A stretch of 64,000 nt of DNA, from the NCBI RefSeq assembly GCF_030463535.1, contig NC_132901.1, forward strand, positions 1,779,636 to 1,843,635, in the 5' to 3' direction. Each line of letters opens with the position of its first letter. Position 1 is the first letter of the stretch. Both the position numbers and the translations under genes were made by a program. Positions 6,001-62,700 of the stretch are shown here, one piece after another. This DNA is from Salminus brasiliensis. Its lineage: Eukaryota; Chordata; Actinopteri; Characiformes; Bryconidae. The notes under the pieces are model-generated. The model had not been told where the DNA came from. It ran no database searches and worked only from the letters and a program-made list of their open reading frames with translations.

Positions 6001-6660
6001 TGAATAAAAAATGTCTTCTTTTTGAGAAAAAATTTAAGTAGTGGTTGCTTTCGTGAACTAGTAAAAACTTTTTTTTAAAGACAAAAACAGAAAATACTGG
6101 ATTTAAATCTTCATTAAAGGTATTTTCCTAAACATTTAACTGTCTTGCAATGAAAAGGAAGGGAATTTAAGAATGGTCCAAAAATGCACTCGAAGGTAAG
6201 ACTATAGCCTTACCTATTTTAGCAATTTTGGTGGAAAAGTTCAAGGTGATTTTTATGTCTTGTTTTGATGGTAAATACTATAATAAACACTCCTGAGACA
6301 TTTTATTATAAATATGTGAATAATAAATGTCTACTTTTTGAGAAAGAATTTAAGTAGTGGTTGCTTTCATGAACTAGTAAAAACTTTTTTTAAGACAAAA
6401 ACAGAAAATACTGGATTTATATCTTCATTAAAGGCATTTTTTAACACATTTAACTGTCTATCAATGAAAAAGAAGGGAATTTAAGAATGGTCCAAAAATG
6501 CACTCGAAGGTAAGACTATAGCCTTACCTATTTTAGCAATTTTGGTGGAAAAGTTCAAATCGATTTTTATGTCTTGTTTTGATGGTAAATACTATACTAA
6601 AATCCCCTGAAACATTTTATAATAAATATGTGAATAATAAATGTCTACTTTTTGACAAAA
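1..6660. repeat. Satellite array, about 310-bp unit, about 21 units
   Basis: Tandem array open at the left edge. A conserved anchor (GGTCCAAAAATGCACTCG) recurs near 261, 571, 881, 1196, 1505, 1818, 2126, 2437, 2751, 3062, 3375, 3685, 4000, 4314, 4628, 4930, 5240, 5549, 5859, 6175 and 6489, a spacing of 302-316 bp. About half of each unit is nearly invariant. The other half falls into subtypes that I call A (TTTGGGTGCACAAGG), B (TTTTTGGTTGTACTAG), C (AAGTAGTGGTTGCTTTC), D (TTTGGCTGGATGAG) and E (one unit near 4150). By eye the order is B-A-D-C-A-B-D-A-C-A-B-A-C-E-C-A-D-A-D-C-C plus a truncated unit. AT-rich, with no convincing coding capacity. The last unit is cut off near 6660, next to an SRCR exon. 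Confidence 0.97.
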
Positions 6661-6689
6661 AATCAACTTGAGGATAGATCAGTTCTTAC

Positions 6690-8438
6690 CTGAACAGGTG
6701 ATTTCTACTGCATTACCCAGTGAGCTGTTCTGCTCCTTACGGGCTAAGGTGCTACAGGTATGGAGATGCGCCTTCTGTAGAGTCAGTGGAGGTCCACAGC
6801 CCAGCTCCCTACAGATGACCTCCGCGCCCTGCCAGTCAAAGTCGGCCTCGCACACCGTGGTCCAGGACTGATTGAGCTTCACCTCCAGTCTTCCAGAGCA
6901 GACTCCAGCTCCGTCCACAAGCCTCGCGGAGGCTGAGAAGACGCACATGTAGCATGTTCTAAACAATCACGATCAAACTGGAACAGCATTCGAAATGTAG
7001 CAAAGCGAAGCCCTCACCTGAGCAGACGACAGCCACGCTGACGTTGAGATGATCAGGATGACAGGATGTGGTCAGGTTCTTACACTTTGAAAGGCTTGAC
7101 TCTTTGCCCTCGCATTCCACGTTAAACAGGCGAACGTCCTCAAGCCGTTCTCTAAAATCACTTCCAAACGTAGCACTGACCACATCCCCACAGTCCAGCT
7201 CTCGGCACAGCAACTCAACTGTTCTGTAGTCAAAGAAGTAGTTGTTCAGTTTCTTCCACTGTCCACCATCAAAAACTTCAGGCATCCCAGAGCAGCGGCC
7301 ATCACCCTCCACCATTCTGACCACGGTCGCCTCTAACCAGACAGGAGGAAACACTGGATGACTTTTTACCAAAAGGAGACAGCCGTCCATCCTGATGACC
7401 AGAAAGAGCCTAGTGTGCCAATTACCTACAAAGTTATGTACTTTTACATTTACGGAATTTAGCTGATGCTCTTCTCCAGAGCGACTTCCAAGGTTACTCG
7501 TATTACAGTGGTTGAGGGCCAATGTAGTGTTAGGAGTCTGGCCCAAGGACTCTTAATGGTGTAGCACAGCATAGCCACCCAGACCGGGAATCGAACCGCA
7601 GTCTCCCACATGAGACTGGGGTAGCTTACTGACATACTGACAGGTAGTGGTGCTACCCGTTGCGCCACACCAACCACTGTGCGGTGTCACTGCAATGTAA
7701 TATGATAATATTTATCATTTTATTTTTTAAACAAATTACACGGATCTACCTTAACATTAGCACCACTGACAGGTCAAGTGAAAAAATTCAGTCCTTCATC
7801 TCCAGTGTTTCTTTTATTATTGTTATTTATTTCAGATTTTTTACCCATTTTCTCACCAATTTAGTATGTAAAGTGAGGGCGAGACCAACACACGCCCCCG
7901 ACACGCCTCAGACGGCCAGCGCCGCACTAGAGTGATATGGGGGAGAGAGAGCGCCATCTACCCACCCTAGAGAGAGCGAGGCCGATTGCCATTGTGCTCT
8001 CTCGGGGCCCCGGCTGCCGATGGCTAGCAGCGTGATCGGGATACGAACCAGCGACCCTCTGATCACAGTGCTTTTCCCGCCGTTACCATAGCAAAGACAC
8101 GCCCACACGCCCCTAAATCAAGCTGCACGGTGCACGGCTTGCCTGAAGGTTGCTAAAATAGGGCCCTGAACCCAACCCTCACAAATTAGTATTGCTAAGG
8201 TCCTTAGGCCTCTGTGAAGCCCCGACAGCCACCACGTCCTAACCGTAGTGTGTCCCTGGTCTCCTACTGAATGTGACGGTACCCAAGTTTCAGATGTCCC
8301 TTCGAGACTTGAAACCACTCGTCTAAATTCCACCCAGCCCCCCCAGCCCTGAGGCCTACCTGCAGTGGAAGAGATGATAATCAGTATAACGAGGGTAAGC
8401 ATGGCTGTCCACTGTCCAGCGTCGCCCAAGGTCTTCAA
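6690..8438 (-). CDS. CD5/CD6-like scavenger receptor (SRCR), 5' part only
   Basis: Minus-strand exons: signal peptide 8438-8360, SRCR domain 1 at 7332-7018, SRCR domain 2 at 6932-6690. All junctions have AG/GT signals and are phase 1, as is usual for SRCR exons. The start is a methionine followed by a hydrophobic stretch (MLTLVILIIISSTA), a plausible signal peptide. SRCR1 (about 105 aa) has VRMVEGDGRCSG, LCRELDCG, and paired cysteines ending in VAVVCSG. SRCR2 is short (about 80 aa), with RLVDGAGVCSGRLEV, WTTVCE, VICRELGCG and a terminal EITCSG; it lacks the usual middle segment. Known SRCR proteins of this type (CD5, CD6, CD163-like) are leukocyte surface or secreted pattern receptors. Everything 3' of SRCR2, including any membrane anchor, is absent: the donor at 6689 leads into an intron that becomes satellite after about 20 bp. 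The gene may continue left of the window or may be truncated. Confidence 0.85.
7440..7680. repeat. Interspersed SINE-like repeat in the SRCR intron
   Basis: Contains a stretch common in teleost genomes (GCTCTTCTCCAGAGCGACTT near 7470; related copy near 53530) and ends in a tRNA-like block with GGGAATCGAACC near 7590 and CGTTGCGCCACACC near 7660. It lies in the intron between the signal exon and SRCR1. Identified by recognition of the motifs, not by a database search. Confidence 0.65.
7930..8115. repeat. tRNA-like interspersed repeat
   Basis: A CCGGCTGCCGATGGCTAGCAG block followed by CGGGATACGAACC. The same block recurs near 10675 and 48597. It is probably a tRNA-derived SINE fragment within the SRCR intron. 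Confidence 0.5.
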
Positions 8439-41484: not shown

Positions 41485-43060
41485 CACACAGTATGTCCTC
41501 ATTTGTCCTCATATATATACACACACGCATACAAAATATTGTTGATATAGTGCATATTTAAATTACAGCTGAATAGATGAAAGGAAGAAATCATCATAGA
41601 AATATAATTCTGTTATTAAGTTCATCTATCGTTAAGTTAATCTATCAATGGATTCTACAGTAAATCAACAAAGAAGTTTTATATTATTATTGTAAATAAA
41701 TATTATAAATGTATATTATTAAATATTGTAAATTTGATTGAGTGTATTTTATTTTTATTTTCAATTTCCTGTTTCTTCAACTACATAGTTTAGTCTAAAC
41801 AGCATTACAATAACTCTCAGTCAGGAGTAAAGCAGCATGACTGACTCTGATTTTCTCAAACTGAATGTTTTTATGTATTTATTTAAACTTGACTTGAAAT
41901 CGCCATTTCAGATTCTCTGAATTTGTCAGTAAAAGATCATTTGAACTTTTTTTTAATTTCAGAAAAATATGTTTTAGCAGAAAAACTAGAAATTCCAGGT
42001 AAATGTTTCATGTTCATGCCAGCCAATCCTTCAATAAAAATAAATATACGAAAAATACAAATCCATGCTTTTTCAATATTTAATATTTCTGTTATTCTTT
42101 CACAGACTGGGAAAAGATGTTTACATGCAAAGGTAAAAAACAGCTCAGGTTCAACACAATGAATATGTATTAAACACTAATAAACTCTATGTTGAATGTA
42201 AATAATTGTCTACTGAATGTAACCTTAACCCTAGCCTTTAGTTTTAGGGTTTATGGTTTAGGTTGTTTAAGTGCAGGGTTACATTTACCTTCCTAGAGTT
42301 CAACTGCAATTAATACATATTCTGTTGAATGCTAGTTGAGCATATTGTAAATATTGTCAGTATTTGCAAAACATATTTTCACAATCATCAATATGTATGC
42401 TATATTAATAATGACCACATTTATTTAAGGACTGTGATCTGTTCATTTAAACTGATGTCAGTTTGGTGGTGTTTTTTTGCAGTTGCTATCAGACCAAATG
42501 CTTCAACATCTTTCCTGGAGGTCGGAAAGAAAAAGTCAAGAGTGACGTGTAAATCAGACGTCCGTGAGAAGACAGGGTTTGTTCATGTCCTGTGTGAAGA
42601 GAGAATCCGCTCAGGACAGTATTACTGGGAGATAACTGCACTTACAGAACCGTATAATACTAAAAAGCCAGGAGATAAATATGAATGTCCATCATCCTGG
42701 TACGTTGGGGTGACCAGTAAAGCAGCTGAGAAGAAGAGCAGAGTTCCTCTAAATCCACAATACGGCTACTGGGTTCTTCACTACGATAAAGAGAGAGGGT
42801 ACTACGTTAATGATCCCTCTTCTGAAAACCTGACTCCGGTTCTAGTGAGAGATCGGTTCTCTAAGCTGGGAGTGTTTCTAGACTGTGAGAAGAACAAGCT
42901 CTCTTTTTACGACTGTGATAAAAAGTCCCATCTCTACACCTTCTATAACGTAGACTCTACAGAACCACTGATTCCAGTTTTAAGTCCTGGAGAGAAACTT
43001 CAACACACACTCGGAATATGTCAAGAAAAGTGTGTGAACTGTGATGAACTTTACTCGTGA
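35077..43060 (+). CDS. Butyrophilin-like receptor BTNL-3 (IgV-IgC-TM-B30.2), complete
   Basis: Exons: 35077-35101 start; 36747-36797 rest of signal peptide; 36887-37234 IgV; 38685-38837 and 38946-39119 C-type Ig halves; 39200-39295 transmembrane; 39373-39411, 40078-40125, 41020-41100, 41963-41998, 42106-42132 short cytoplasmic exons; 42483-43060 PRY-SPRY. Total 1656 nt (551 aa), in frame. Unlike the other copies, the signal-peptide exon at 36747 has no ATG; joining it to ATGGCTCAGG at 35077 restores a plausible leader ([19 protein letters not shown]), so the start is inferred. IgV has VLLPCG, VRWYR and RGEYVCFV. The B30.2 exon has YYWEI, WYVGVTS, LGVFLDC and LSFY, and ends in a short cysteine-bearing tail. 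It forms a distinct B30.2 class with BTNL-4. The C-half exon 2 is longer than in paralogues (174 against 126-138 nt). Confidence 0.88.
35760..36085. mobile_element. MITE copy in the first BTNL-3 intron
   Basis: Begins ACAAAAATATTGGGACACTC and includes CAAAAGTATTGGATGGAGCA and GCAATGGGTGCAACTTAAAG. The right end is truncated and runs into another repeat at about 36090-36200. Confidence 0.75.
37750..38640. mobile_element. Older transposon fragment with a nested MITE (37955-38255)
   Basis: Flanks carry GACTGAAACGGGTTGTCTTG and ATGATGCTTCCACCCC, the order seen at 31125-31260. Between them sits a MITE copy starting AAAAGTATTGGGACACTC and including ATGGAGCACCATCTATTATT and GCAACTTAAAGTAGCTGAAT. 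Lies in the BTNL-3 intron between IgV and IgC. The open frame at 38289-38636 belongs to this repeat. Confidence 0.65.
41436..41480. repeat. (TA)n microsatellite
   Basis: About 45 bp of TA repeats in a BTNL-3 intron. Confidence 0.95.
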
Positions 43061-45369: not shown

Positions 45370-46180
45370 GGCTCAGATCAGACCTCATATCTGAGAGCAC
45401 GGGTCGAGTGAACATCCTTGGGAGGGTTTTCCACTGTTTCCAGGCTCATTTAGTAGACTGGCTCATCCAGGTTTGCTTGCTTTCCCACATACTCGAACGT
45501 AGCATGTTGCTAAATTCGCAGCTATAGTGGGCCTATTATTTTCCCACCTGTTTTCAGAGCCTGATGTCACCAAACAGTGAGCTCCCTCGCGTTTCAGAAT
45601 TAGAGCCAATCGTTAGTTACTCTTCTCCTGAGCTTTCAGCAGTCTGTAAGAGGAAGCTCTGACTTCCTGCTGAATCTGGTTGCACAATCGATTGCGCTAA
45701 CGTTAACGCTGCCACTCAGCCAGTCCCTCCACCTGTGACGACACCTGCATACCCTCTATTGACAATAAACCGGCCAGGGTGGCTGTTAGCCGGTTAGCTG
45801 GTTCAGCTGGGGACCCGTCAATTTCCTCCAGGCGTGTCGACGTAGCACAGGCGGTGGCTGGCTTCGCATGTATCGGATGAAAATTGAATGTGCTGGGAAA
45901 ATTACATGATAAATATTTATAAATAAATAATCTAAGTACTTTTACATGCCTTACTTACGTTCTCAGTAATCACCGGGATCATTTTGAGTATCTAGAGTTA
46001 CCAGACCTGGTTGTTATTTCTGGTTATTGTAACTTCTGTTGGGGATGAAGTGGGGATGAAGTGGGGATGAGGTGGGCTGGTAATGATCATAATCCAACAT
46101 CCGAGCGAGTCACATGTATAATTTAAATTCGGACAGTTCCTTATATGTTCCTGATATTGTGTTTATTTTATATTTAGATT
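45370..46180. other. Intergenic, nothing firm
   Basis: A short triplicated GGGGATGA(A/G)GTG run near 46039-46075. No exon seen. Confidence 0.5.
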
Positions 46181-46189
46181 TCTCTTTAC

Positions 46190-46543
46190 ATTTTATGATG
46201 AATGGACCAATAGAAATGCTCCTAAATGACCTGGAATCAAATATTTGTACACTGACTTTCATTAAAAGTTAAGGTCTTCTCCAGTAAAGAGACACGTTTG
46301 GATGTCAGGCTTGAAAAACAATTCCAGAGAAGATGCCGGAGGGCTTTAGTTGGTATGTGCCCCCTGTCTTAGTTTCCTCACTCACGTCTTCCCGGTGTTA
46401 CAAGTTTTAGATGTGATTGAAGGAACGAGGAAATCAGCTCTGGCTCTCACTCTTTAACCCTGCAGTCCTGCTTTTAACAGTGCAGATGGACTGAAGCTCT
46501 TCAGGACCACTCCGCACCTTCTACACCAAGCTGCCACGTAAAG
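46190..46543 (+). promoter_or_regulatory. Promoter-proximal block and non-coding first exon of the 459-aa gene
   Basis: Starts with ATGAATGGACCAATAGAAATGC (inverted repeat-family element). It is followed by TTTCCTCACTCACG and CGGTGT, then the exon: CTGGCTCTCACT, AACCCTGCAG, CCTGC, CAGTGCAGATGGACTGAAG, CTTCTACAC, AAGCTGCCACGT and donor AAAG/GTAAGCTGTG at 46543. Related blocks lie at 50420-50803 and 58090-58503. Confidence 0.75.
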
Positions 46544-46721
46544 GTAAGCTGTGATTGCCCTCAGCAATGCGCCATATTGTCTGTTGTAATTCTGAGGCTG
46601 CAGTTGTCATTAAAAGTGGCATTAGTGTTGAATTTGGAGCTGCATTTGCTTTTGCAATGTACGTAAAGAGGTTCTCACATCTAACGTGAGGTGTTACCTT
46701 CTTCCCGTTTCAGGCTGCAAG

Positions 46722-48101
46722 ATGAAGACGGCAGATCTGCTCCTGTGCTGTTCCTTTGTGGTCCTGGTCTTGTCCAGTGTCGCCTCCACCCAGGACCTGA
46801 ATACCACAGAGGACCTAAGAAACACCAGCTTCGGCATGCAGTTTCCAAGACACGGCCTCATGCTTCTGCTCTGGTTTGCCGACAACATCGGCATTGATCA
46901 GAACAACGTCATTCAGCCCCTGTATTTCCGTCCGGACCAAGGAGTCTACGGCTTTCATTATTACGCAAACTATGAGTATGATCGACGTACAGGGAGACAC
47001 CTGTTCCCCAACTCTTACAGCACTGTGTACTATTCTTTTGGCAATGTCAATAGCCAACGTGCACAGTTTGAACTTCCTGTTTATGTCACGCAAGATTACC
47101 TCAATTCAGGAGAAAATTTACTCAGTAACATAGACAGGATTGTTATTAGAGTTGAAAGGGAAAATCCACAAAGAGTGCAAGAAGTGTATATTACACAGCA
47201 CTATGAAGATAGAAACCGAGGCAGTGGGTATGACCCGGACAACACCTATAGGGTCAGCACACAACTCCTGAGGCAAGTTCAAAACCTTATCCGACAGAAC
47301 GTCTATGTTCCAGAACTTGTTAACTTGTATCCACGCGCCAGAGGATTAATACCACTCTTGACTCAGGCAGGTTACGACTATAATAATAGGATCGCTCAAT
47401 ATACACAGTCCAGGTTCTGCATACGCAGAGGAACCAACTTATTCCGCAGTATGTGTTCACTCACAGCAGAGCTTGAATGCGAGACCCCCAGTAAGATGAA
47501 GCTGGAAGTGAAATCCACCTCAGACGGATACGCCAAGATCTTATGGAGTGAAGTACCAGAGGAACTAGTGAGAATGAACAGCAAGGCAGGTCTTTACAAA
47601 GACAACCAGTTGCTGAAAGTTTACGACCTGGATCGAAGAACGTTTGGAACCACTGACACTAAGACAGTCCTAAATTCTGGCCTTCAAGTAAAGCTTCTGA
47701 CTACCAACAACGAAGTGATCTGGGTAGGCCGAGAGTTCGACGAGGCCAATGGCGCTCTTCCTACTGAGATCAAAGGTTTTGACGCCAGCCTGCAGCTTTT
47801 CACTAAAGACGGCTACGCCTGCGCTCGACTCTTCATCAGAAAGACCTTCAGTGACTGGAAAACTAGATTTCACAACTCCTGGGTGGGATTCTACAGAAGC
47901 TCACAAGATTCTAATAATGGATACAAAACATTCCAATGGAGTGTGTATTTTAAGATAAACGCTAGTCAGGTTTTGTCTAACGATTACGACATTTACGAAT
48001 ATGAGTCAAACGTGGCAGTTGGGCCTGGAGTACAGGTCCGATTCCTGCTAGACAAAAGCAGCACAAATGAGCGAGCTCGCACTATACCCTGGGTGGCGTA
48101 A
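46722..48101 (+). CDS. Secreted 459-aa protein of unknown family, single coding exon
   Basis: The coding exon starts just after an acceptor (TTTCAG at 46713); ATG at 46722 is followed by a clear signal peptide (MKTADLLLCCSFVVLVLSSV). An upstream in-frame ATG at 46686 lies in the intron. The rest is long, uninterrupted and rich in Tyr, Asn and Arg, with no transmembrane segment. The N-terminal part (residues about 25-230) has LLLWFADN, GFHYYANYEYD and VYVPELVNLYPRARGLIPLL. A short cysteine cluster (FCIRRG, MCSLTAELEC) separates it from a C-terminal part (about 245-459) with GYACARLFIRK and SWVGFYRS. I do not recognise a family. The frame is intact, and an AATAAA near 48193 closes it, so it looks functional. 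It interrupts the BTN-like cluster, yet its first exon resembles those upstream of BTNL-4 and BTNL-5. Confidence 0.88.
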   Translation: MKTADLLLCCSFVVLVLSSVASTQDLNTTEDLRNTSFGMQFPRHGLMLLLWFADNIGIDQNNVIQPLYFRPDQGVYGFHYYANYEYDRRTGRHLFPNSYSTVYYSFGNVNSQRAQFELPVYVTQDYLNSGENLLSNIDRIVIRVERENPQRVQEVYITQHYEDRNRGSGYDPDNTYRVSTQLLRQVQNLIRQNVYVPELVNLYPRARGLIPLLTQAGYDYNNRIAQYTQSRFCIRRGTNLFRSMCSLTAELECETPSKMKLEVKSTSDGYAKILWSEVPEELVRMNSKAGLYKDNQLLKVYDLDRRTFGTTDTKTVLNSGLQVKLLTTNNEVIWVGREFDEANGALPTEIKGFDASLQLFTKDGYACARLFIRKTFSDWKTRFHNSWVGFYRSSQDSNNGYKTFQWSVYFKINASQVLSNDYDIYEYESNVAVGPGVQVRFLLDKSSTNERARTIPWVA

Positions 48102-48384
48102 TCGATCCACCTAAACATGACCAGTTGATGAGAAATGATGGGTTACTGGAAAAATGATGCGTGATGAAGTCAGTAGCTCTCAAAAAATGATTAAATAAAG
48201 AAATTAAGAATCACAGATAAAGATGATCATATACTTATTTTTTGATTCTGGCTGATAGACTACAGGACCTGATGGTAGCATGTATTTGTGCTGTGTTTGA
48301 TTACTTATATCCAAAAGGCCAATCTGTTTTTAAATACTTTCAATGTTACAGGGAATTTTTCCTCTTTTTATTCTGAGTTTGGTT

Positions 48385-48655
48385 CTGCCAATTAACCGAC
48401 CCGTTTGTAGCTCCCCCTTGCACTGGTAATGTTCCCGACACTAGGAGTGTCCCAGGCCTCCTCCGATACATGTAAAGCCAGGCCACGCCTCTTTTCAAAC
48501 TGCCAGGCAGCTGACACACCTGGAGGAAACACTTCTGCCAGGTCCTCCCCCTCACCAGCTAACAGATGCCTGTGCCGGCCAACATCGCTTGACTCCGGCC
48601 GCTGATGGCAAAGCGGCATGGCTCGGGGTTCAGGCTGGCGATCCCCAGTATTAGG
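48385..48655. repeat. tRNA-like interspersed repeat
   Basis: CTTGACTCCGGCCGCTGATG near 48588, as near 8010 and 10675, preceded by GGTAATGTTCCCGAC and CTGACACACCTGG blocks. SINE-like. Confidence 0.5.
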
Positions 48656-48659
48656 CGTC

Positions 48660-49650
48660 GGCAGTCATTTCTGTAAAACATTGTAAAAATAACGGCAGGT
48701 TATATTAATCCAATGTGAATCAACACCATGTAAAACTAATTCAAATTTTGCTAGTACGGGTATCCCAAAGAGTATCGCCTGGAGGTTAAAAAACATTAGC
48801 TAGCATGGGAATCATAAGGATTAATTAATGGCTTAGAGGTTGGTCTTACTTTAAGGTAAAACTTTATTTAGCTTCAGCTGCTTTTAGTGCTCTTTCTCAC
48901 TTAGGGTGCTGGAAATCACTCATAAAATCTGTTGTATTTCTTTTTTTGCAACTTTTTAATTGTAATTTTTAAATTGTTATTCTTGCAAAAGCCTTTCTGA
49001 GGTGTTAGATCTCAGTATTAAAGCTTTTATTTTTCTTCATGTCTTTGCCTTTTTTCTATGTTTATTTTAAAGCACTTTGAATACCCACTGTGTATAAAAG
49101 ATGCTATACAAATAAATTTGCTTTAAAAAAAAATCATATATAATAAACTCAAATTCAAATCAAATGTATTTGGTCTCTGATATATTTCTTATTTCATCAA
49201 ATATGACATAAAAGGTGCTCTTACAAACATCACAGCTGTAATTAGGTAAAATAATCCTTGTTGTTGCTTACCAACCAGCGATCAGCAGAATCAGGACATG
49301 TAGGATGTGGCAGAATCTCATGATTTTAGATATTCAGGGGGAAAAAAAACAAATACATACTAACAATACATATATTAGTGCATCTCAAAAAAATCAAAAG
49401 ATATTGTGAAAAAAACATTCTTAATTATAATTTCATTCATTCTAGTTTTTAAATATTTTATATTTATATACATTAAATATTTCATTTACATATTAATGTA
49501 TTAGTACCTGATATTAATTTGCTATATTATATTAATTAATTTAAAACTGAAACAATACAATGTAATCATTATAAAATACATGACAGTTTACCTTTTGATT
49601 GAAGGTTTTATGAATACAAATGATTTTTCCCACCATATTCCATCTTAAAG
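48660..49650. other. Intergenic AT-rich DNA
   Basis: No gene recognised. Short TTAAT/TATAT-rich stretches only. Confidence 0.5.
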
Positions 49651-49654
49651 GTGA

Positions 49655-49743
49655 TAAAGGTGATAAAGGTGCACGTATTCGTCACTGTACAGTGTGGACT
49701 GTACAGCGAAATGTGTCCTCCGCATTTAACCCATCTGGTAGTG

Positions 49744-49793
<50 letters not shown>

Positions 49794-49980
49794 TTAGGGG
49801 CAGTGAGTACACACACACACCCAGAGCGGTGGGCAGCCAACTCCAGCGCCCGGGGAGCAGAGAGGGTAAAGGGCCTTGCTCAAGGGCCCAACAGTGGCAG
49901 CTTGCCGAGCCCGGGAATCGAACCCACAACCCTGTTATCGATATCCCGGCGCTCTAACCGCTGAGCCACCACTGCCCCAT
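49655..49980. repeat. Interspersed repeat with tRNA-like end and (CA)n
   Basis: GCACGTATTCGTCACTGTAC at the start, (AC)n at 49746-49790, GGGAATCGAACCCACAACC and CGCTGAGCCACCACTGCCCC at the end. A familiar teleost repeat layout with a tRNA-like B-box. Confidence 0.75.
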
Positions 49981-50419
49981 CTTGCAATGAATGCCATAAA
50001 GGCGGATGTAGTGGCACTCTTCCGTCAGCAGAAACTCAAACAGGTCATGGCAGATTCGTAATCCTAGAGGAAAATAAGGGTCTCTTTCTAGTTGTGATCA
50101 GATAATACCAGACTAACACACCCATGTGTTGCACCTGAAGGTTCTCCACAAGGGAGCGCTATTAGCACATAAACATCTTTTTGTTGCTGTCATGCCCAAA
50201 CCTAGTACCTGGAAAGTGGCACCTTCACCTTTAGAACAAGCAGAAATCTCAGAAAATTGGTCCGTTCATCATGAAATTTGGATCATTTTTGAAAAAATTA
50301 AAGTCAACAATAGAAAATTATACATATGAGCAAGACTAATAAAACCTTGGATTTACCCCGCCCCTGTTACCTTTATATAGTTGTATACCTTATGGATAGT
50401 TGTTTTCTTTATATTGTAT

Positions 50420-50803
50420 CAGAATTTCATGATGAATGGACAAATAGAAATGCTCCAAAATGACCTGCAATTAAATCCTTTTCCATTGACTTCCACTTAA
50501 AGCTAAGAAGGTTTTTGTTAGCTAAGAAGTTGCTGTTTATTATTGGAGATGGGAAAACGGCAGACAGAAATGTGGAAAATCCAGAATTTCGCCCTCACCT
50601 TGGCATCTGCCATCTGTCCGAGTTTTCCCCTTTCTGGTGTTTCCAGTTGTAGCTGTAGCTGGCTCTCACTCCTCAACCCTGCAGCCCTGCTCCAGTGTTG
50701 GAGAGCAGCGTCGGAACAGTGCAGACGGACTGAAGCGACCCAGGATCGTCCTGAAGCTCTTCAGGACCGCTCTGCACCTTCTACACTAAGCTGCCACATA
50801 AAG
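50420..50803 (+). promoter_or_regulatory. Second copy of the promoter/first-exon block, upstream of BTNL-4
   Basis: ATGAATGGACAAATAGAAATGC near 50433, GGTGTTTCCAGTTGTAGC near 50637, then exon-like CTGGCTCTCACTCCTCAACC to CTGCCACATAAAG at 50803 with donor GTAAGCTGTGATTG. Nearly the same as the first exon of the 459-aa gene. The next acceptor downstream that leads to a start codon is CAACAG/ATATG of BTNL-4 at about 51918, so it is probably the BTNL-4 first exon. Confidence 0.7.
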
Positions 50804-50965
50804 GTAAGCTGTGATTGTACTCTGCGCCTGCTGTAGGAGAAACTCCAAAAGGCTGCTGGACACTCAGCAGACACCACAGCAATGCACCATCTTATGTATT
50901 GATAATTATCTGATTATAATGATCCAGTTCTTTGTAATTATGATTGTTTTTAAAGGGGAACCCTG

Positions 50966-51330
50966 TTGTTTGTTGTTGTTAACAAAGTGAAAGTGAAACT
51001 GACTCACGTACAGGTGCACTGTAAACAGCATAAGCTCCAGTTTCAAACTGAAGAACCTCCAGAAGTTCCTCCAGGATCTTACACTGTTAAAAGTGTATTC
51101 CAGTGGAGGGAGAGGAGTCGAGGTGTCAAGCAGGGATCAAGAAAACAGTGGGGATGAGCCCAGTGAGGATCAGTACAGTGGGGATCACCTAAGTGATGAT
51201 CAGAACAGTGGGGATCAGCCTAGTGAGGATCAGAACAGTGGGAATCAGCCCAGTGATGATCAGTACAGTGGGGGATCACCCCAGTGATGATCAGTACAGT
51301 GGGGATCAGCCCAGTGAAAAGCCATGATCT
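50966..51330 (+). repeat. 30-bp minisatellite (about six units) in an open frame
   Basis: From about 51150 a 30-bp unit (ATCAGTACAGTGGGGATCAG then CCCAGTGATG) repeats about six times. On the plus strand the repeat encodes a ten-residue acidic unit of the type DQxSGDxPSxD, until an extra G near 51270 shifts the frame. The preceding 180 bp (50966-51150) is also open and codes for a basic segment including EEPPEVPPGSYTVKSVFQW. No splice signals tie it to BTNL-4. It could be a decayed exon or chance. Confidence 0.6.
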
Positions 51331-51920
51331 GATCCAGGCCGTGAGTTTTTGTGATCCATTACACCAATAGGCAATAAGTGAAGACGTGTTTCTCAAAGCT
51401 AAAAGATGATTTCCCCAAAGACAGCAGAATTCCAGCCACGAAGTTTGTGTGGAAGAGCCACATTCCAGAGCTCAGATGTGGGAACAGCAGAGTCCATTAA
51501 CGTGAACCAGCTGGTGTGTCGACTTTGCCTACAAATAGTAGTTTTATTTGATTCATGTTTTATTTATTTACAATATTTAAATATCATTTTAATGTTGATT
51601 TCATAAATGAATATATTTAATTGACAAGTTTGTAATCGTGAGGTTTTCATTACATTTTCTGAACTAATATTTAAATATTGATCAAATTTCTCATTTATTT
51701 CCATTTATTTTCCCAGCCCACACCTTTACCAACTCATTTACATATCCCCACCTATAGTCCCCTACACTAATCTAGCTCCGCCCACTCACAATCCAGCTCT
51801 CAGCAATGTTTCAGCTCTTTTAGTTACTCCATCCAAGTGTTCGCAAACTTGTTGCTTGATTAAGAAGGCAACATGGCGAAAGCTGCACATACTAACTCAT
51901 ACGGCTTTCCACCAACAGAT

Positions 51921-53835
51921 ATGCTTCTTCTACTGATGATCTTTGATCTTCTTGGATGTTGCAGTGCAGGTAATTCACTTGCACCAGCCCAGGACAGTCT
52001 GCCAAGTCCTAAAACCTTTAAAACTATCAATGTTTTAAACACAATCTGTCCCTTTTAGCCCTCTTCTCTTTGGAGGTTCCTGGTGGATCCTTGTTAGCTT
52101 CTAGAGGCTCCTCTGTTCTACTGCCATGTGGAGCTTCCCCTTCTCTGAATGTCAAGAGCTATGAAGTGCGCTGGCATAGACCCAATAGAAAGGACAACCC
52201 AATTCTACTGTACAAGGATCTAAAGGTCCAGGAGAACGCAGGAGAGCCTCGGTACAGAGGCAGGGTGTCTCTGGTTGGGGATCTGCAGAAGGGGAACGTC
52301 TCTCTGAAGTTGGAGAACCTTACACTAGCAGATGGAGGAGAATATGTGTGCTACGTTAAGAGCATCCAATGGTATGACAGTGCTAGCGTGAACCTAAATA
52401 TTACAGGTGGGAATTTAACTTGCTTGATTTTTTTGTTTACCTTATTTCATTTAATATGTAAACATGTTTGTTTACTTTCCTGAATGAGCCCATATTGTGT
52501 TTTTAACTCTAGTGGTTGGGTTGTCTCCTCTCCTCTCGATTGCTGAAGCTGGAGATGAGCTAAATGTCACATGTGAATCAGATGGATGGTCACCAGAGCC
52601 CACCCTCACCTGGAGAGACAAGAGAGGAAGAAAGCTCATTAACAGTGCTGTTCACTACGAAACAGGTTCGTAAATAAAAAATATAATAAAATGGACAAAA
52701 GTATTGGGACACCTGCTCATTCATTGGTTGTTCTGAAATCAAGAGAGTTGATCTTGAATGTTAGTGAGATCAGGATGTTGGATGAATGGTCACCATCCCA
52801 CCTCATCCCAAACTTATCAACTCACCCCATTCAAAAGTATTGGATGTGCTCCACCACCACCACCATCATTCCAGAGAACACAGTTCTTCCACTGCTCCAC
52901 AGCTCAATGCAATGGGTGCAACTTAAATTAGATAAAAGCATTTATTAGATGGGGTGTCCACAAACATTTGCCAAACCATTCTCAACCATCACTGTTGAGA
53001 ATCAGATGAGTTAAACCAGATTCTTCTTCTCTCTTCTTTCTCAGACTCTGAAGGGTTGGTGAGAGTGAGATCTTGGCTGAAGTTCTCTCCCTCTGAGTCA
53101 GAGTGGCTCTCCTGCTCTGTGGAGATGACAGAAGGACGAGTGCTACCACTACCACTCAAACCTGCCCCTGCTGCGGGTAAGATCTGAATGCTCCACACAC
53201 AATCCAATGAACACCTAAATATCCTTGGTTGTCAGATAAATCAGGAATCTACTTACATTCTACCAGGATGGAAAAAAGCCTTCCTCGTCTCTCTGGTAGT
53301 CACTCTGCTGGTGTTAACTGTAATGGCCCTCCTCATCGTCCCCAAGACCAAAGGTAGGGAATGTTCAGTTATCAGTGGAATCTGATTACAAGCCAAACCT
53401 GAAATGTTTGTAATGTTGGAAATCTTCTGAAATACAGGCCACACTTTCCCAAAAGAACAGGAGACCGCATTAGCAGGTGAGATTCAGCATAATGCTGTGA
53501 ATTATTTACATTTACAGCGTTTAGCAGACGCTCTTCTCCAGAACGACTTACAGAAGAGCTCACTGTTTACTCAAGAAAAACCTCAGCTAATTTAAATAGA
53601 CAAAAAATTCAAAGATCCTCTAAGTTTAGACTCTACTAAACACAAGTCAGTAAGGTGACCACTCTGCTATTCGCCCAAGTCCTCTCAGAAGAAGAGGGTC
53701 TTCAGTCTGGGTTTGAGGACAGTGAGTGTTGGACTCTGCTGTTCGGACACCCAGGGGAAGTTCGTTCCACCACTTCGGTGCAGGACAGTAAAAAGTCTGG
53801 ACGCTCGTCTTCCGTGGATCAAATTCTCAGGATTC

Positions 53836-53910
<75 letters not shown>

Positions 53911-54954
53911 AATTAAATACATTCATTAATTTTAATTACTTCAAATAAATTAATGAAATTTCATACAGGATCTACATGGCATTGACATTTTCTTTTTTTT
54001 TCTTTGTGGTCATTTAGGTGAGGAAGCAAATCCTTTGAGTGAGTATTTGTTCATGTTCTCAACCCTTCTTCATAGCCTCATTACTCCAGATGGTAATGTG
54101 ATGCAATGGAAAGGGCGGGGCTCTACAGATTTAGGAAATTAACCGTATTTCTTTTCAGTATTTTCACAAAGACATTAATCATTAATAGAAACATCAAATT
54201 TGATGCACCAATGCGTTCATAACCCTGTTCATGCTGGGTTTTGTCATTGGAGTGTCATTATTTTTTATCCCAAATTGAGTTTTGTTTCTGACATTTTTGT
54301 TTTCAGGTGTGACGCCAGCTCCTGATTCCTTTACGAATATCTTATTCTTTCTTTTTTATATTAAACAGTTGCAGGAACCAGTACAGAGAAAGACAAACCA
54401 GGTAAATTTCTATCTGCTTTCGCAAAACTTAAAAATTGATTGATGAGGAAAGACTAGTCTCACTTTTACACTTTTTTGTACTTTGTAAAAATCATCTCAG
54501 TGAATAAATTCAAAGAAACAAATGGTATTGTAAAGGAGAGATCAGTATTTCATCAGGCCCAGTTTCTGCTGTGAAACCAACTCCTGAAACAACAGCTGGA
54601 GTCCCTCTAATCTCAGGGAACACCATTAAACTCACACATAGTTATTATTAGAGATGAATACACCTAAACACTTAAATTACCATCTAATCCCATCATGCAC
54701 TTGCAAAGTCTTCAGGCTAAATATGTGTCAAATAACTAAAAAATGCAGATCTCATTCTTACTCTCTAAATCTGAAATGTCATGAAATGTCCTCCCCATGT
54801 TAGGTTGTGACCATCATTTAATTTGTTCCATATACAACAACAATAATTATTTAGTGTACACTAATATGACAAGAATACCCACAGGGTCTGACATGGTACG
54901 CACAGCAAAGTCACTCAACAGCAATGACCTAAACAAATATACTTACTATGGTCA

Positions 54955-55027
<73 letters not shown>

Positions 55028-56275
55028 CTTTAAAATGTTCATCTTTAATCTCCTCCAGTTAAACCCAGTTTATCTCACATATTGAATTCCACTTAAATTA
55101 TTCCTTTTGATTGACTTAATTCTTGCTTTTTTTAATTAAACATTTTAAAAATATTGAATTTATGATATTTAATCAATTAACTGTTGTTTTTATTTAAACA
55201 GTTTGGGAAAAAATTGACAAAGAAACGAACACAGAAAAAGAAGTTCCAGGTAAATTTGAACATAGTAGGATATACAGTCACGTCAGATCAAAAATTCAGA
55301 ATTTGCACTAAATCCTTTTTTTCTTTTGCAGATTGGGAAAAGATGACTGGATGCAAAGGTGAAATTTGTGGAATTTACTATACCTACCACAAATACTACT
55401 TAATATATAACAGAAAAAATTAATCCCATACTAAAATTCAAAGAATAACACCTGACTTCAGAATTAAAACACAGTATTAACTTTTTTGCTTTCCTGCAAA
55501 AACTCTTTTTGATGGTTTTCACTTTCTGATGTAATCTAAATCTGCTTAATATTATATAATATTTATATGAAATATCAAAGTTGATTCTGCATAGCTATAA
55601 TCCTAACTATAATGCTTTTTCAGAATCCATCTTAATTTATTGATATAACTTGGTCAATTTTTTGCAGTTGCTATCAGACCAGATGCTTCAACTGCAACTT
55701 TCCTGGAGGTCGGAAAGAAAAAGTCAAGAGTGACGTGTAAATCAGACGTCCGTGAGAAGACAGGGTTTGTTCATGTCCTGTGTGAAGAGAGAATCCGCTC
55801 AGGACAGTATTACTGGGAGATAACTGCACTTACAGAACCGTATAATACTAAAAAGCCAGGAGATAAATATGAATGTCCATCATCCTGGTCTGTTGGAGTA
55901 ACCAGTGAAGCAGCTGAGAAGAAGAGCAGAGTTCCTCTAAATCCACAATACGGCTACTGGGTTCTTCACTACGATAAAGAGAGAGGGTACTACGTTAATG
56001 ATCCCTCTTCTGAAAACCTGACTCCGGTTCTAGTGAGAGATCGGTTCTCTAAGCTGGGAGTGTTTCTAGACTGTGAGAAGAACAAGCTCTCTTTTTACGA
56101 CTGTGATAAAAAGTCCCATCTCTACACCTTCTATAACGTAGACTCTACAGAACCACTGATTCCAGTTTTAAGTCCTGGAGAGAAACTTCAACACACACTC
56201 GGAATATGTCAAGAAAAGTGTGTGAACTGTGATGAACTTTATAGACAACCTGATAGAACTGCTGATAGTCTTTAA
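51921..56275 (+). CDS. Butyrophilin-like receptor BTNL-4 (IgV-IgC-TM-B30.2), complete
   Basis: Exons: 51921-51969 signal peptide ([16 protein letters not shown]); 52059-52406 IgV; 52513-52665 and 53045-53176 C-type Ig halves; 53267-53353 transmembrane; 53438-53476, 54018-54038, 54369-54401, 55202-55249, 55332-55358 short cytoplasmic exons; 55668-56275 PRY-SPRY. Total 1545 nt (514 aa), in frame. A longer in-frame start at 51873 exists, but the acceptor-like CAACAG before 51919 and the matching layout in BTNL-5 favour 51921. IgV has VLLPCG, VRWHR and GGEYVCYV; the C half has [10 protein letters not shown] and EWLSCSV. The B30.2 exon is almost identical to that of BTNL-3 but ends in a different, longer tail ([10 protein letters not shown]). 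Introns hold a MITE, a SINE-like repeat and two long TA tracts. Confidence 0.9.
52690..52972. mobile_element. MITE copy in a BTNL-4 intron
   Basis: Begins GGACAAAAGTATTGGGACAC and ends GGGTGTCCACAAACATTTGC, with shortened interior. It splits the two C-type Ig exons. Confidence 0.85.
53505..53830. repeat. Interspersed teleost-type repeat in a BTNL-4 intron
   Basis: TTTAGCAGACGCTCTTCTCC at the start and GGGGAAGTTCGTTCCACCAC near 53755. Start motif shared with 7440-7680. Confidence 0.7.
53838..53908. repeat. (TA)n microsatellite, about 70 bp
   Basis: Uninterrupted TA dinucleotides directly following the 53505 repeat. Confidence 0.95.
54957..55023. repeat. (TA)n microsatellite, about 66 bp
   Basis: Uninterrupted TA dinucleotides in a BTNL-4 intron. 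Confidence 0.95.
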
Positions 56276-58080
56276 AAAAAGTATGAAATAGCCTATATAT
56301 TATTTTCATACCCAACGGCACATGAACAGTTGGCTCCAATCTCCTCAACCTGCTCAGAACCAGACAAATAATCCACAAAAAGTTCTGAATTCCAAAAATC
56401 ACCTCGATTAATTGCGTTAGATAGTTGGACTTACTTGATTGGTTTATTGCAGACAGCTGAAAAAAAAAATGTTTACATTTTGCCAATGAACCTCATTTGC
56501 AGTGGGGGTTAAATCATTTGAGCTGCAACTGTAAATACTCAAGAAATAATAAAAAAAAATAATAAATACATTTTATGGTACCTTAGTTTCTTTACATTTG
56601 TGAAATCCAGGTTCTAGGAGCACATTTCTTTTCTATATTATTATTAATGACCCCCAGCAGCACTTTATATATTTATATATAAAATATAGTATATATATAT
56701 ATATATATATATTTTATTTTAGTCGTTGAACATCAAATAATTCCATAGAAGTAACGACTTAATTTGGTTGGTACATCGTAGTGGGTAAGAGCACTGCTTG
56801 TAAGAGTCCTCCTGACTCCTAACTCTACATTCTTCCACCTGTGTAATATGACTCACATGTACTCTGCATGAGAGCATCAGAAGAATGCTGTAAAAATACA
56901 CTTCTACGTTAAAATCTCGGAGGAACGAGAAAATGTTCATGCTGCGACATGGGGACTGTAAGAGGGCATGTGTGTGTCAACAAAGAAAAGATTCTGATAG
57001 GCAGATTGACTTACTGGGAATGTAGCCACAAACCAGACGTGCAATGTGGGACATTCCTCAGTCAGGGTACAGTCATCTTGTGCTCAGGGTACATCATGTT
57101 TGGGAAAATGATGTCCCGAGATCAGGTTTGTTATTGGAAACAGAATAGTTGGGTCTATTTGGCCGCCCTGACATAAGCGCCACAAACTGAAACGATGGCC
57201 TAGTTTACCTATATGAAAGCACCAGTCCTGACTCCCCTACCTCCAGGCTCCAGGTTTGGAAATAAGCCAGTTTTGAGCTCCTGAAGTTCATTCCTATCTG
57301 ACGATGAATCTGTAAACGCTCTGAGCTTTCAGAGTCAAACCGGTTCTGCTGCGTCTCCTTTATCTCTCCAATCTAACTACATCACTTAGCAGACAGCAGT
57401 CAGGGGTTGCATTTGGAGAATAACAGTGATCCAGGATGTTCCCAGTAACAACAAACACAACATCGGGATGCCAGAATTTGTGTTAACTTCTCTATTGTAT
57501 CTCTACAACAGTTTTTTTTTTACTGTTTCTGTGTTTTATAAGCATTCACACTCAATGCTAACACTAATGCTGACACTAGAGTCTGTCTTTTTGCCACTCT
57601 GTAGCTACCTACAGGCTGCTACCTGTGTGTTTTTCCGTACCTGTCTCAAACTCATGGAGGAAGAAGAGTAAAGACTTTTAACGCCATTATCCAGATACAC
57701 ATTTCAAGAGTACATCACTCTGCCCAGTATGAGGAGTATCAGAACACAGCAGAGCTAGCAAACATCACTAACCACACAGATCAGGAAACTGCAGACCACA
57801 TTTAAGTTAAGTGATGGTGCTACATAAGCAGCACTTTTCGGCTGTGTTTCCACCCTGAGCTCCACAGTGCAGCTCTGTACGGGAATTCACGGATCTCTGA
57901 GCTGGTGCTGAGAGATCCACAGTGTTTTAAATGGCGGTTTTATCTTGAAAGACAATCACTGAACATTACAGAAGCGCTGCAGGATGATGTGCTACCAAGT
58001 CTGCCTGGAAAGGTTAATGCGCCAATGTGGAATCCAGATCTGCAATTTTTCTCCATGGTTTGGACCCTTTAGCTGCTTCT
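56276..58080. other. Intergenic, BTNL-4 to BTNL-5
   Basis: 3' flank of BTNL-4 with AATAAT-rich stretches near 56545 and a short TA tract near 56690. No exon or known repeat stands out at 56720-58080. Confidence 0.5.
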
Positions 58081-58089
58081 GTACCCTGT

Positions 58090-58503
58090 GTAAATGATTC
58101 TGGATGAATGGACCAATAAAAATGCTTTAAATTACTTGGAATAAACTCTTATTTTACATTGACCTCCATTCAAAGTTAAGAGTTGATTTTATCACAGTTT
58201 TGGAGATAGAGGTTTTTCATTGGACAGTGATGATATACTGTACGTATAATAACTTACCAAATATCTTTTCTTGGGGGTCCTGGAGGCTGGAAGCAGCATC
58301 ATTTCACCCTGAGCACCTGCCCTCTGTTGTTTCCTCACGCACTACTTCCTGGTGTTTCCAGTTGTGGCTGTGGATGAGAGAAAGAACACAGCAGCTCTAG
58401 ATCTCACTCCTAAAAACCTCACTCCTGCTCCAGACTCGCCAAGCTTTTAAGGTGTGGACTGACTGAAGCAACCTAGGATCTTGGTCCTACAGGGCAAGAC
58501 AAG
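58090..58503 (+). promoter_or_regulatory. Third copy of the promoter/first-exon block, upstream of BTNL-5
   Basis: ATGAATGGACCAATAAAAATGC near 58103, TGTTTCCTCACGCACTAC and GGTGTTTCCAGTTGTGGC near 58325-58370, then TCTCACTCCTAAAAACCTCACTC-like exon sequence (in part) with GACTGACTGAAG and donor AAG/GTAAGCTAAT at 58503. More diverged than the other two. The next start-codon exon has acceptor CAGCAG/ATATG (59755), so it is the likely BTNL-5 first exon. Confidence 0.65.
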
Positions 58504-59757
58504 GTAAGCTAATTTATACTCATTATTTATAGATATTTTAAGTGTTATTACATTTTTAAAAAATGAAATAAGATTTGATTAGGGTTAAAATATCTAATTG
58601 TTTCTTTAAGTAAGTTAGAGTACATTAATACATTTACAAGTAAATTGTGAAGAGCTAGCTGGAGTGTAGTGGCTAAGCGCTACTAAGAGATGTTTAGGTC
58701 TGGTTCTAGTCACTCTGAACTGGCCAAACTCAGGTTAACCCAAATGTGTTGTAGATCTGCACTTTTCCCAGAATGCTAGTGATTTAAGTAATTATTTTTT
58801 TTTTTTAGGTGTAATTAGGTTTGAAGCTCATTCTGATGTGTTTGAGATGAGCATGATGGACTGCCACTGAAATGAACTTGCCTTCATTTCAGAGCAAAAT
58901 TAAATACTGAATATTTCAAACCACGTTTGTAGAGCCAGAGCACTGTAACTGCCTGTATATCTGGATGCCTTTACTTTTACTTTTAATTTTTGTCGAACTA
59001 TCACATTTCTAGGCTCTCACTACCTTTTATACTACACTTTCCTATTTCCACACAAAGGTCCCTCCGACAGTTGAACCATAGTTGCTTAAAGCAGTTCACA
59101 AGAAATGTGGATTGTTGTTTTAAACCCTGTTCATACTTTAAAGTAAATATGTGCTTAATAAAGATGTGTGGTTTGTCTTTCCATGTAGCTTTCATTGGAA
59201 AGAGTACTGCAGCTCAGAACAAGAAAACAGGTGAGCATAAAGTACACAAAAGACCGGGTCCAGCATGGCTGGGGTGTTTATATGGATTAGATTCTATCAG
59301 TCTGAATGTTGGCTGCACTGCTGCACTATTTGAGATGACCCAACCAGGTCATATTAAACAGAAGTGCTGCATATTGTAAAGTTTAACTGCCTAATGACAA
59401 AAAATAGTTGCGCCAGACCACCGTTGGCTGCATAGAACGTTCAACGGCATTTCAACAACAGGGAGTTTGGGACCTAAAGATCAGCTCTTTATTGTGAAAA
59501 AGGTTCTGAGTTATAAAATGACCTTAATTTTGTTTCCTGTAACATTTCCTGTGACCCTGCCTGATAAAAGACTCAAGCCTTGCCATCAGAGCCTTAAGAT
59601 CTAGACCCCATATTTACTAGTGCTTAGATGTAAAGGACCCAGACCTCATCAACATGGCTTGTGACGCCACATTAGCGATGCTGACGACATACTTAGCAGT
59701 GGTTGAGAGTGGTTTCAGCAGGAAACACACACTAACTGATGTCTTCTATCAGCAGAT

Positions 59758-62700
59758 ATGCTTGTTCTGCTGATGATCTTTGACCTTCTTGGAGGTTCGA
59801 GTGGAGGTAAGTCTTTTGCTCCAGCCCAAGATACCCGGTCCTAAAACTTCAGAGTACTGAATGATGGCAGGGCTAGCGTGATTAACGGGAACAGGCGTCG
59901 CCATGACTGATTAAACCTTCTGTACTTCGGCTCTGTGATCCCTCCCTTTGATATTTAAACAAAGATCAGACAACTCCATTCATTTCTCTCTGTTTTAAAG
60001 TAGACTGTTTGGACACAAGTACTGGGACACACTCTATTTTCTATTGTTAGGATTTGATTGCATTCAGCGACAAGAACATTATTGAGGTTAGGATGTTGAA
60101 TGATGATCACCCCCCACACCTCACCCCCAACTCCCCAATTCATCCCCATCCATCATTCCAGAGAACACAGTTCTTCCACTGCTCCACAGCTCAGTGCTGG
60201 GGGGGCTTTATACCCCTCTAGCCTATTCCTGGCATTATTAGGCAGCATGGTGCCAGATAGTCCTATTCTATTGGCAGTACTTCTTCTCTACAGGGACCAG
60301 ACATGCTGTGACACATCTGCATCAGCAATGGGTGCAACCTAAAGTAGCTAAATGCATTCTTTAGAAGGGGTGTCCAAAAACCACTGGTTCACATCAAGCT
60401 ATTCATGACTGTTTAACATTTCCCGTTTAAACGGTTCTTGATTGTTCAACGTAAAATTACCCCTTCTTGACTCTAGCGGTCGGGTCTCACCCTGTCCTCT
60501 CACTGGCTGAAGCTGGAGATCAGGTGAATGTTACCTGCGAATCAGATGGATGGTCACCAAAGCCCACTGTCACCTGGAGAGACAAAGGTGGAGGAGAACT
60601 CAGGAACAGCTCTGAAAGCTATAACGGAGGTTGGAAAACAAAGCATGTAGAACTTCAGACTTCACACTGGACTCATTTTACACTCACATTCACACTCTCT
60701 CTATATTTCATCACAAAGACTCGAAAGGCCTGGTGAGCGTGACATCTTGGGTGCTTCTCTATCCTTCGGAGTCTGAGTGGATCTCCTGTTCTGTGAGTTT
60801 ATCCGCCCGAGACCTGAAAGAGGGAAGAGTGCTGCCATTCAGTCCAGCATTAGCAGGTAAGTCATGCGGTACACTTCCACCTGACTGATACTGTGTAGGT
60901 CCCTCTCATGCCACCAAAACAGCTCTGACTCTTTGAGACATGGCCTCCACACAACTTCTGAAGGTGTCCTGCTGTGGTATCTGGCACCAAGACTAATGTT
61001 AGCTGAAGCTCCTTCAAGTCCTGTAAGTTGTGAGGCGGGACTTTTCTTGGAGCACTTTGGTAGATCTTGACCACTGCATATCGGGAACAACCCACAAGAC
61101 CTGCCTGATGATTTGGAGATGTTCTGTACCAGTCGTCTAGAACATCACAGTTTTGGTTCTTGTCAAAGAACAACACCTTCAAGAACTGACTGTTCACTTA
61201 CTGCTTAATACTGACACCAGAACCTGATCATCAATGTTATTCTTGTGGTTTTAATGTTATGGCTAATCCATTTAAAACAAAGTAACGCCCCCCTGAAAAC
61301 ATGGAAAATAAAAATTGTTGTCTGCATTATTTTAGCAGGACTTTCTGCAGGATGGAAAGCCTTCATCCTCTTACTGGCGGTCAATCTGTTGGTTTTCACT
61401 GTGATAGCAGTCCTCTACATCTCCAAGATTAGAGGTAGGAAATGTTTCATTTAGGAAATCAGGAAATCCTCATTAGAAGCCTTTGAAGAAATTGTCATTT
61501 TTGGAATTTTCTGGAATATAGGCCATATTTCCCCAAATGTCCAAAGTCTGATCCAGTCTGCTGGTGTCTAAAAATAATATAGTTTAAATATATATAATAT
61601 AAAAAATCTCTATGTAAAAACAACATTAGTTTGTTACCCAAACTAAACCTATTTTACAAATTACAAAATTACACCTTTTTTTTATGTACGGATGTATGTA
61701 ATTTTTTAATTTTTTTATTATTTAGGTCAACTGGAAGAGCACACACTTCCTGCTGGTGAGTAGTTACTTCATTGATTTTTGGAGCTGTATGGATACCATT
61801 GTTGTAAGTTATATGACTTCTATCTGCTCATGAGCAACGTTTTAATTTAATTTAATTTAATATAATATCCATGTCTTTTCACATGGAGGAAAAGGAAACA
61901 AGTAGCTGTAACATTGCTGCCAAGATGGAAAGATTCAGTATTCCACCTTTTTTAGCAACTGATTAACAAATAAATATTAAATTATCAGGGTGAAATTTTA
62001 ATGAATCACTTTTACTTTAAAGGTGAGAATGGTCTTCTTTTAAACTCAGATTCTACAGCTGCTGGAATCCTAGAAAGCTCAGGTAACACCATCAGATCAT
62101 GTAGGTATTATATAAAGGTCAGTTGACTTGGAACACAAAAAACAACAAGCTTGGAGATTTATCTCCAATTACCATTTCATTAACTTGTTTAAATTAAACA
62201 GCTAATCCAAATGTATTGAATTGAAATGTATTCTTTAATTTAGTTGTAAAAATGATTGGTAAAAAAGGTGTTGTGATTAATAGCAATATACTTTCATTAC
62301 ATTTTCAGATTTTTTTCTAATATAATTAAAAGTGATCTAAAATAAGGGAATGCCAATAGTTTTGTTCAATAGTTTACTCAGTATTTAATAGACTGCACTG
62401 GTGTACAATATAAAGTCCAATTTACTGTTTTGAAGTTTTTTTGAAAATAATAAGGCTGAAATAATAAATATCCATGTTGATTTACAGCGCAGGGGCATTA
62501 ATTTTGTTTTTCTACATCTCTGTTTAAATATTTGTTTAAACTGTGGACTTGAGAGCACTAATGCAATATTTTAATTGTTTCAGAAAATGAAGAGTATGAA
62601 ATTCCAGGTAACTTAGAACATGATTTTACATTATTTCTAATTGCATTGTAAACAAAATTGTAAAAAGTAAAATGTAATTGCAATGGCAATTTTACAATAT

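Follow-up and report, generated by a model that had tools for sequence, protein, structure and literature searches.

Gene content of the locus and the upstream blocks

The window analyzed here is a 64,000-nucleotide stretch of the Salminus brasiliensis genome (assembly GCF_030463535.1; 1.07 Gb in 103 contigs), spanning positions 1779636-1843635 of contig NC_132901.1 (hereafter C28), which contains a cluster of butyrophilin-like (BTNL) genes and, among them, a gene encoding a secreted protein of 459 amino acids (aa) that belongs to an unrelated family. Three similar blocks occur upstream of the 459-aa gene (B1), BTNL-4 (B2), and BTNL-5 (B3); their exons end at 46543, 50803, and 58503, each directly followed by GTAAGCT, just where a first-pass annotation of the stretch had placed them. 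The blocks were read, aligned with one another, and compared with the whole genome, and splice sites were read from the sequence, partly by eye. The features on which the following analysis relies are listed below in window coordinates.

46171-46287, + strand: part A of B1, a dispersed-repeat member holding the CCAAT-containing GGACCAATAGAAATGC (blastn, genome search, and 16-mer count)
46341-46448, + strand: part B of B1, proximal promoter, up to and including most of the initiator-like TCTCACTC (alignment and genome search)
46449-46543, + strand: B1, non-coding exon 1 of the 459-aa gene, with a putative start at the initiator-like A and its end at the GTAAGCT donor
46544-46714, + strand: proposed 171-bp intron in the 5' untranslated region (5'-UTR) of the 459-aa gene, composed of a BTNL-4-like start, a repeat, an unmatched stretch, and the acceptor TTTCAG
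46715-48101, + strand: coding exon of the 459-aa secreted protein (coding sequence 46722-48101), with AATAAA at 48194
47635-48090, + strand: tract nearly identical to a partial copy at C28:2391922-2392410 (3 of 456 positions differ), ending abruptly at the stop codon
50398-50516, + strand: part A of B2, dispersed repeat (genome search and alignment)
50592-50667, + strand: part B of B2, proximal promoter of BTNL-4 (alignment and genome search)
50668-50803, + strand: B2, non-coding exon 1 of BTNL-4, start putative
51919-51969, + strand: start-codon (signal peptide) exon of BTNL-4, borders by eye
52022-52480, + strand: open frame with the IgV exon of BTNL-4 (Pfam V-set)
58047-58232, + strand: part A of B3, dispersed repeat with a different 5' flank; 58232 is the query end and the repeat may extend further
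58303-58405, + strand: part B of B3, proximal promoter of BTNL-5 (alignment and genome search)
58406-58503, + strand: B3, non-coding exon 1 of BTNL-5, start putative
59756-59806, + strand: start-codon exon of BTNL-5, borders by eye

A locus-specific promoter and exon joined to a dispersed repeat

Each block is a mosaic of a dispersed repeat (part A) and a locus-specific segment (part B). Part B extends over about 250 bp (in B1, from about 46341 to 46580) and comprises the proximal promoter, an initiator-like site, the non-coding exon, and the GTAAGCT donor. The site TCTCACTC, which we take to be initiator-like from its resemblance to the initiator consensus, is invariant across B1, B2, and B3. 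Pairwise alignment of part B up to the donor gave identities over aligned positions of 81.6% for B1-B2, 68.8% for B1-B3, and 69.7% for B2-B3. By blastn, 46491-46565 is 91% identical to 50751-50825 (104 bits) and 46362-46472 is 73% identical to 58320-58429 (62.6 bits), while B1 part B, shuffled 300 times under an order-1 Markov model, scored at most 33.7 bits against the window; the similarity of the blocks is thus far above chance. The window is rich in duplications, with 91 of 200 random 260-base stretches reaching 62.6 bits elsewhere within it, and the argument for block specificity is therefore carried by the genome searches rather than by within-window similarity.

In these searches, the B1 and B2 queries for part B matched only B1 and B2, and the B3 query matched only B3, at a sensitivity that allows copies of about 70% identity to escape (the B3 query missed both B1 and B2). 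Additionally, a 28-place initiator pattern with at most two mismatches detected six sites in the whole genome, three of them perfect (B1, B2, and B3) and the other three with two mismatches each, compared with two sites for a reversed control; the pattern was built from B1-B3, so their perfect matches are built in and the absence of others is the informative part. Neither the three genome searches nor the pattern revealed a further convincing copy of part B, within the same limit for low-identity copies, and at this sensitivity part B is restricted to the locus.

Part A, the first 85-190 bp or so of each block, contains GGACCAATAGAAATGC, and it is here that the single shared block described by the first-pass annotation breaks down: promoter, exon, and donor are specific to the locus, whereas the segment bearing GGACCAATAGAAATGC is a genome-wide repeat. 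This 16-mer has 7,116 exact copies in the genome, 3,531 on the forward strand and 3,585 on the reverse; the reversed control has none in either orientation. Attributed to all three blocks, it is exact in B1 only, with variants in B2 (GGACAAATAG) and B3 (GGACCAATAAAAATGC), and the CCAAT box is not present in B2. A genome query with the whole of B1 yielded 2,015 first-look candidates; all 40 that were scored matched, and the 39 besides B1 itself were confined to its first 100 bases. Part A of B2 gave 3,122 candidates, with a best other match of 92% over 113 bp among the 40 scored, and part A of B3 gave 4,429, where the best of 40 by score reached 87% over 184 bp and the most similar 93% over 135 bp. 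Within the window, antisense relatives of part A occur at 11.4, 21.9, and 29.8 kb, with another short, weak relative at 50.27 kb. The core of part A is only 80-83% identical among the three blocks, and seven genomic copies fetched with the B1 query (L002-L008) are 91-95% like B1, a contrast biased by their being the best B1 matches. Judged by these comparisons, the three copies appear no closer to one another than to copies elsewhere and nothing in them points to common descent other than membership of one repeat family. Descent of the whole block from one ancestral promoter was rejected, as part A is a repeat whose three copies are this divergent.

The three separate repeat members share the same orientation and lie at roughly equal distances, 100-250 bp 5' of the initiator-like site. 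An old insertion later overwritten, preferred insertion, and reuse of the CCAAT box are possible explanations of this co-placement. Two relatives of part A also occur before BTNL-6 (see below), in opposite orientation and about 550 and 950 bp upstream.

Exon 1 in the BTNL genes

Pfam detected V-set, C2-set, or SPRY domains in eight of nine window frames tested (V-set in four, BTN3-like C2-set in one, and SPRY in three). The next two genes, located in the right flank (30 kb) just outside the window, are named BTNL-6 and BTNL-7 here; each is preceded by a relative of the BTNL-4/BTNL-5 start-codon exon (E 1.3e-7 and 5.9e-9, respectively). The part B model matched a 75-bp stretch spanning the donor before BTNL-6 (E 7e-7) and 33 bp at the corresponding place before BTNL-7 (E 0.07), in both cases with the start-exon match downstream; across the BTNL-7 donor, the bases are nearly identical (GGTAAACTGTGATT for GGTAAGCTGTGATT). 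Because a counterpart of the donor end stands before BTNL-6, and perhaps before BTNL-7 too, exon 1 seems to be native to BTNL genes, specifically to the BTNL-4 to BTNL-7 group. Near BTNL-1, BTNL-2, and BTNL-3, neither the start-exon model nor the part B model had a significant match, which lends indirect support to the earlier statement that BTNL-1 and BTNL-2 have a different first exon. Part B was not found in 15 kb of sequence fetched for two far BTNL-type genes at C28:23.88 Mb.

The SPRY exons of BTNL-3 (42473-43054) and BTNL-4 (55649-56272) are 97% identical in protein and 98% in DNA over 300 nt, in contrast to the 64% protein identity of the IgV frames of the same two genes, a likeness that may reflect gene conversion or recent exchange. 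In BTNL-5, the start exon and a C2-set-like exon were found with no V-set match between them (59806-60455), and none for this gene in the window.

The 459-aa protein and its relatives

A protein search of the genome with the 459-aa protein produced 20 matches including the window gene. Twelve of them, representing pieces of about seven genes, form a minus-strand cluster at C28:2.35-2.40 Mb, some 0.5 Mb from the window, while the others comprise two pieces of one gene on contig C12, four matches at C28:29.41 Mb, and one on contig C5. The 459-aa protein and seven aligned relatives had no Pfam match better than E 0.05, searches of the family against Pfam and PDB gave best E-values of 0.085, 0.042, 1.2, and 0.057, none taken as significant, and no V-set, C2-set, or SPRY domain was found in the 459-aa protein by Pfam. 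Sequence comparison thus assigns the coding part to a family unrelated to BTNL.

Five full-length relatives were read upstream, namely the C12 gene and four minus-strand genes, m1 (L031:2373-3860), m2 (L031:7402-8952), m3 (L032:6295-7845), and m4 (L033:1809-3371). In m1-m4, an AG acceptor, recognized by eye, lies a few bases before the ATG, as it does in the window gene. Three of these relatives, m2-m4, have a 5' region different from that of the window gene: a 550-bp model of it had no window match better than E 0.94, and it recurs at another site of the cluster (L030, E 1.5e-10). In the 67 kb (seven loci) fetched around family members, part B gave nothing better than E 0.6.

The nearest relative, C28:2391922-2392410, matches residues 295-457 only, and the tract 47635-48090 shared with it looks gene-conversion-like, as a recent event of this kind would leave. 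A retrocopy origin of the 459-aa gene was not favored, since other family members also have a single long coding frame. Five relatives (L023, L024, L026, L027, and L032:618-1847) end differently, three short ones in CTIL or CVIL, which we take to resemble prenylation boxes, and two in or near a hydrophobic stretch.

Probable capture of a BTNL-type promoter and first exon

It seems probable, on the basis of these comparisons, that the 459-aa gene is a family member that came to lie behind a BTNL-4-type promoter and exon 1. In this reading, BTNL-4 to BTNL-7 would open with related non-coding first exons, the start codon coming in an exon of its own, and members of the 459 family would natively use a 5' region of their own together with an acceptor only a few bases from the ATG. 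The segment copied from a BTNL-4-type gene would include the proximal promoter, exon 1 with its donor, and 22-37 bp from the start of intron 1; it now lies 171 bp 5' of the single coding exon of the 459-aa gene, so that BTNL exon 1 (46449-46543) would splice to the old acceptor at 46715 and an unchanged secreted protein would be produced under a BTNL-type promoter. The observations underlying this reading are the homology of the B1 promoter and first exon to those of the donor genes, the restriction of part B to the locus, family membership, the like-placed acceptor, and the absence of the m2-m4 5' region from the window; the transcription start, splicing, direction of transfer, and co-expression are predicted from them. 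As the acceptor is like-placed and the m2-m4 5' region is absent, the window gene appears to keep the coding exon and acceptor of its family while having a BTNL exon 1. The direction from BTNL to the 459-aa gene is arguable because the donor end precedes further BTNL genes and m2-m4 have a different 5' region.

The join itself probably lies in the 5'-UTR intron, at or beside a dispersed repeat. This intron shares its first 22-37 bp with BTNL-4 intron 1, the similarity past the B1 donor ending at 46565 by blastn and at about 46580 by eye, and a second dispersed repeat, about 53 bp long, occupies 46587-46639 (398 first-look candidates, 40 scored); the placement of the join follows from this stop and this start. 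From there to the acceptor, no listed match was found.

Several observations weigh against this interpretation. The B1 promoter differs from the donor promoters: GGTGTTTCCAGTTG, reported by the first-pass annotation for all blocks, is exact in B2 and B3 only and reads GGTGTTACAAGTTT in B1, whose exon 1 also holds a two-codon upstream open reading frame at 46486. Among the family members, the distinct 5' region is documented for m2-m4, three of the five read, the C12 gene has by eye no acceptor as close to its ATG, and the nearest relative lacks the 5' half, which leaves the direct ancestor's promoter unreadable. On the donor side, the BTNL-7 donor match (E 0.07) is not significant on its own, and the upstream half of the promoter was seen in B1-B3 only and not before BTNL-6 or BTNL-7. 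Moreover, a search for BTNL remnants around the 459-aa gene, between B1 and B2, recovered nothing apart from the block itself, although relics might be looked for had the gene inserted into a complete BTNL copy. The proposal of promoter capture itself stands insofar as an unrelated secreted gene shares a locus-specific promoter, exon, and donor with two BTNL genes, but the captured promoter has diverged at GGTGTTTCCAGTTG. Although the 459-aa gene may have inherited a BTNL expression pattern, the shared expression programme once suggested is offered here as a hypothesis because of the altered GGTGTTTCCAGTTG and the two-codon upstream frame.

Among the alternatives, B1 could serve BTNL-4 as an alternative first exon further upstream, or be what is left of a BTNL copy since lost, with the 459-aa gene lying in its intron and starting on its own at 46590-46715 or elsewhere. 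B1 and B2 are indeed the closest pair, and both lie on the same strand 5' of the BTNL-4 start exon at 51919. This arrangement is nevertheless unlikely, given the acceptor-like TTCTTCCCGTTTCAG (by eye) 171 bp past the B1 donor and directly before the 459-aa ATG, where m1-m4 have theirs. Alternatively, the block could have originally belonged to the 459-aa family and been borrowed by the BTNL genes. Sequence similarity alone is symmetrical and would allow this, but the donor end of exon 1 also stands before BTNL-6 and perhaps BTNL-7, the 67 kb around family members contain no part B, and three members share a different 5' region, all of which make such borrowing highly improbable. Finally, that the whole block is a promoter-carrying transposable element is scarcely credible, since this holds for part A, with its 7,116 exact 16-mer copies and 39 scored non-B1 places matching the first 100 bases only, and not for part B, whose queries match two places (B1 and B2) or one (B3) and whose perfect pattern sites are three, all at this locus. 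A generic transposon at thousands of sites had been named beforehand as grounds for abandoning the capture proposal; this description fits part A and, at the sensitivity available, not part B, for which a transposon source was rejected by the genome searches and the initiator pattern.

Capture of a BTNL-type promoter and exon, as favored here, invites a broader and rather doubtful extension, in which the BTNL cluster drafts outside genes by donating its promoter and exon 1, the 459-aa protein is made in BTNL-4/BTNL-5 cells and acts beside them, and exchange with the old cluster 0.5 Mb away continues.

Relation to known systems

Promoter capture is a known kind of event, here occurring in a butyrophilin-like cluster. 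The chimeric Drosophila gene Sdic acquired its promoter elements when an exon fragment from one parent gene was fused to an intron from the other (PMC3395120). The present case resembles it in that a duplicated gene would gain new expression through the sequence of a neighboring gene while its coding part comes from one parent, and differs in that an apparently complete BTNL-type promoter and non-coding exon seems to retain its old role. In Schistosoma japonicum, several genes share a core promoter and signal sequence whose copies are dispersed genome-wide (PMC3434034). Both systems place genes behind similar promoters, and flanking repetitive elements were proposed there as mediators of DNA-level recombination, whereas only a non-coding exon and promoter are common here, at a single locus. 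The donor genes have the V-set, BTN3-like C2-set, and SPRY domains of the BTN/BTNL group, all of which the 459-aa gene lacks.

None of the titles listed by the literature searches names this locus or promoter capture from fish BTNL genes, which may nevertheless be in print. The locus would represent a compact natural regulatory capture in an immune receptor cluster, in which donor, recipient, relatives of the recipient, and approximate breakpoint are all readable. Should the 459-aa gene be expressed as the captured promoter dictates, the case would illustrate how a gene whose function is unknown entered a butyrophilin-like setting and hint at where its role might be sought.

Other features of the window

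Positions 1-6662 are occupied by a satellite array with a 309-bp unit in 21.4 copies, an array that spans the recurrent minus-strand open reading frames near 0.6, 1.9, 5.0, and 5.6 kb. Adjacent to it, the minus-strand open frames at 6682-7552 resemble SRCR domains in their general appearance.

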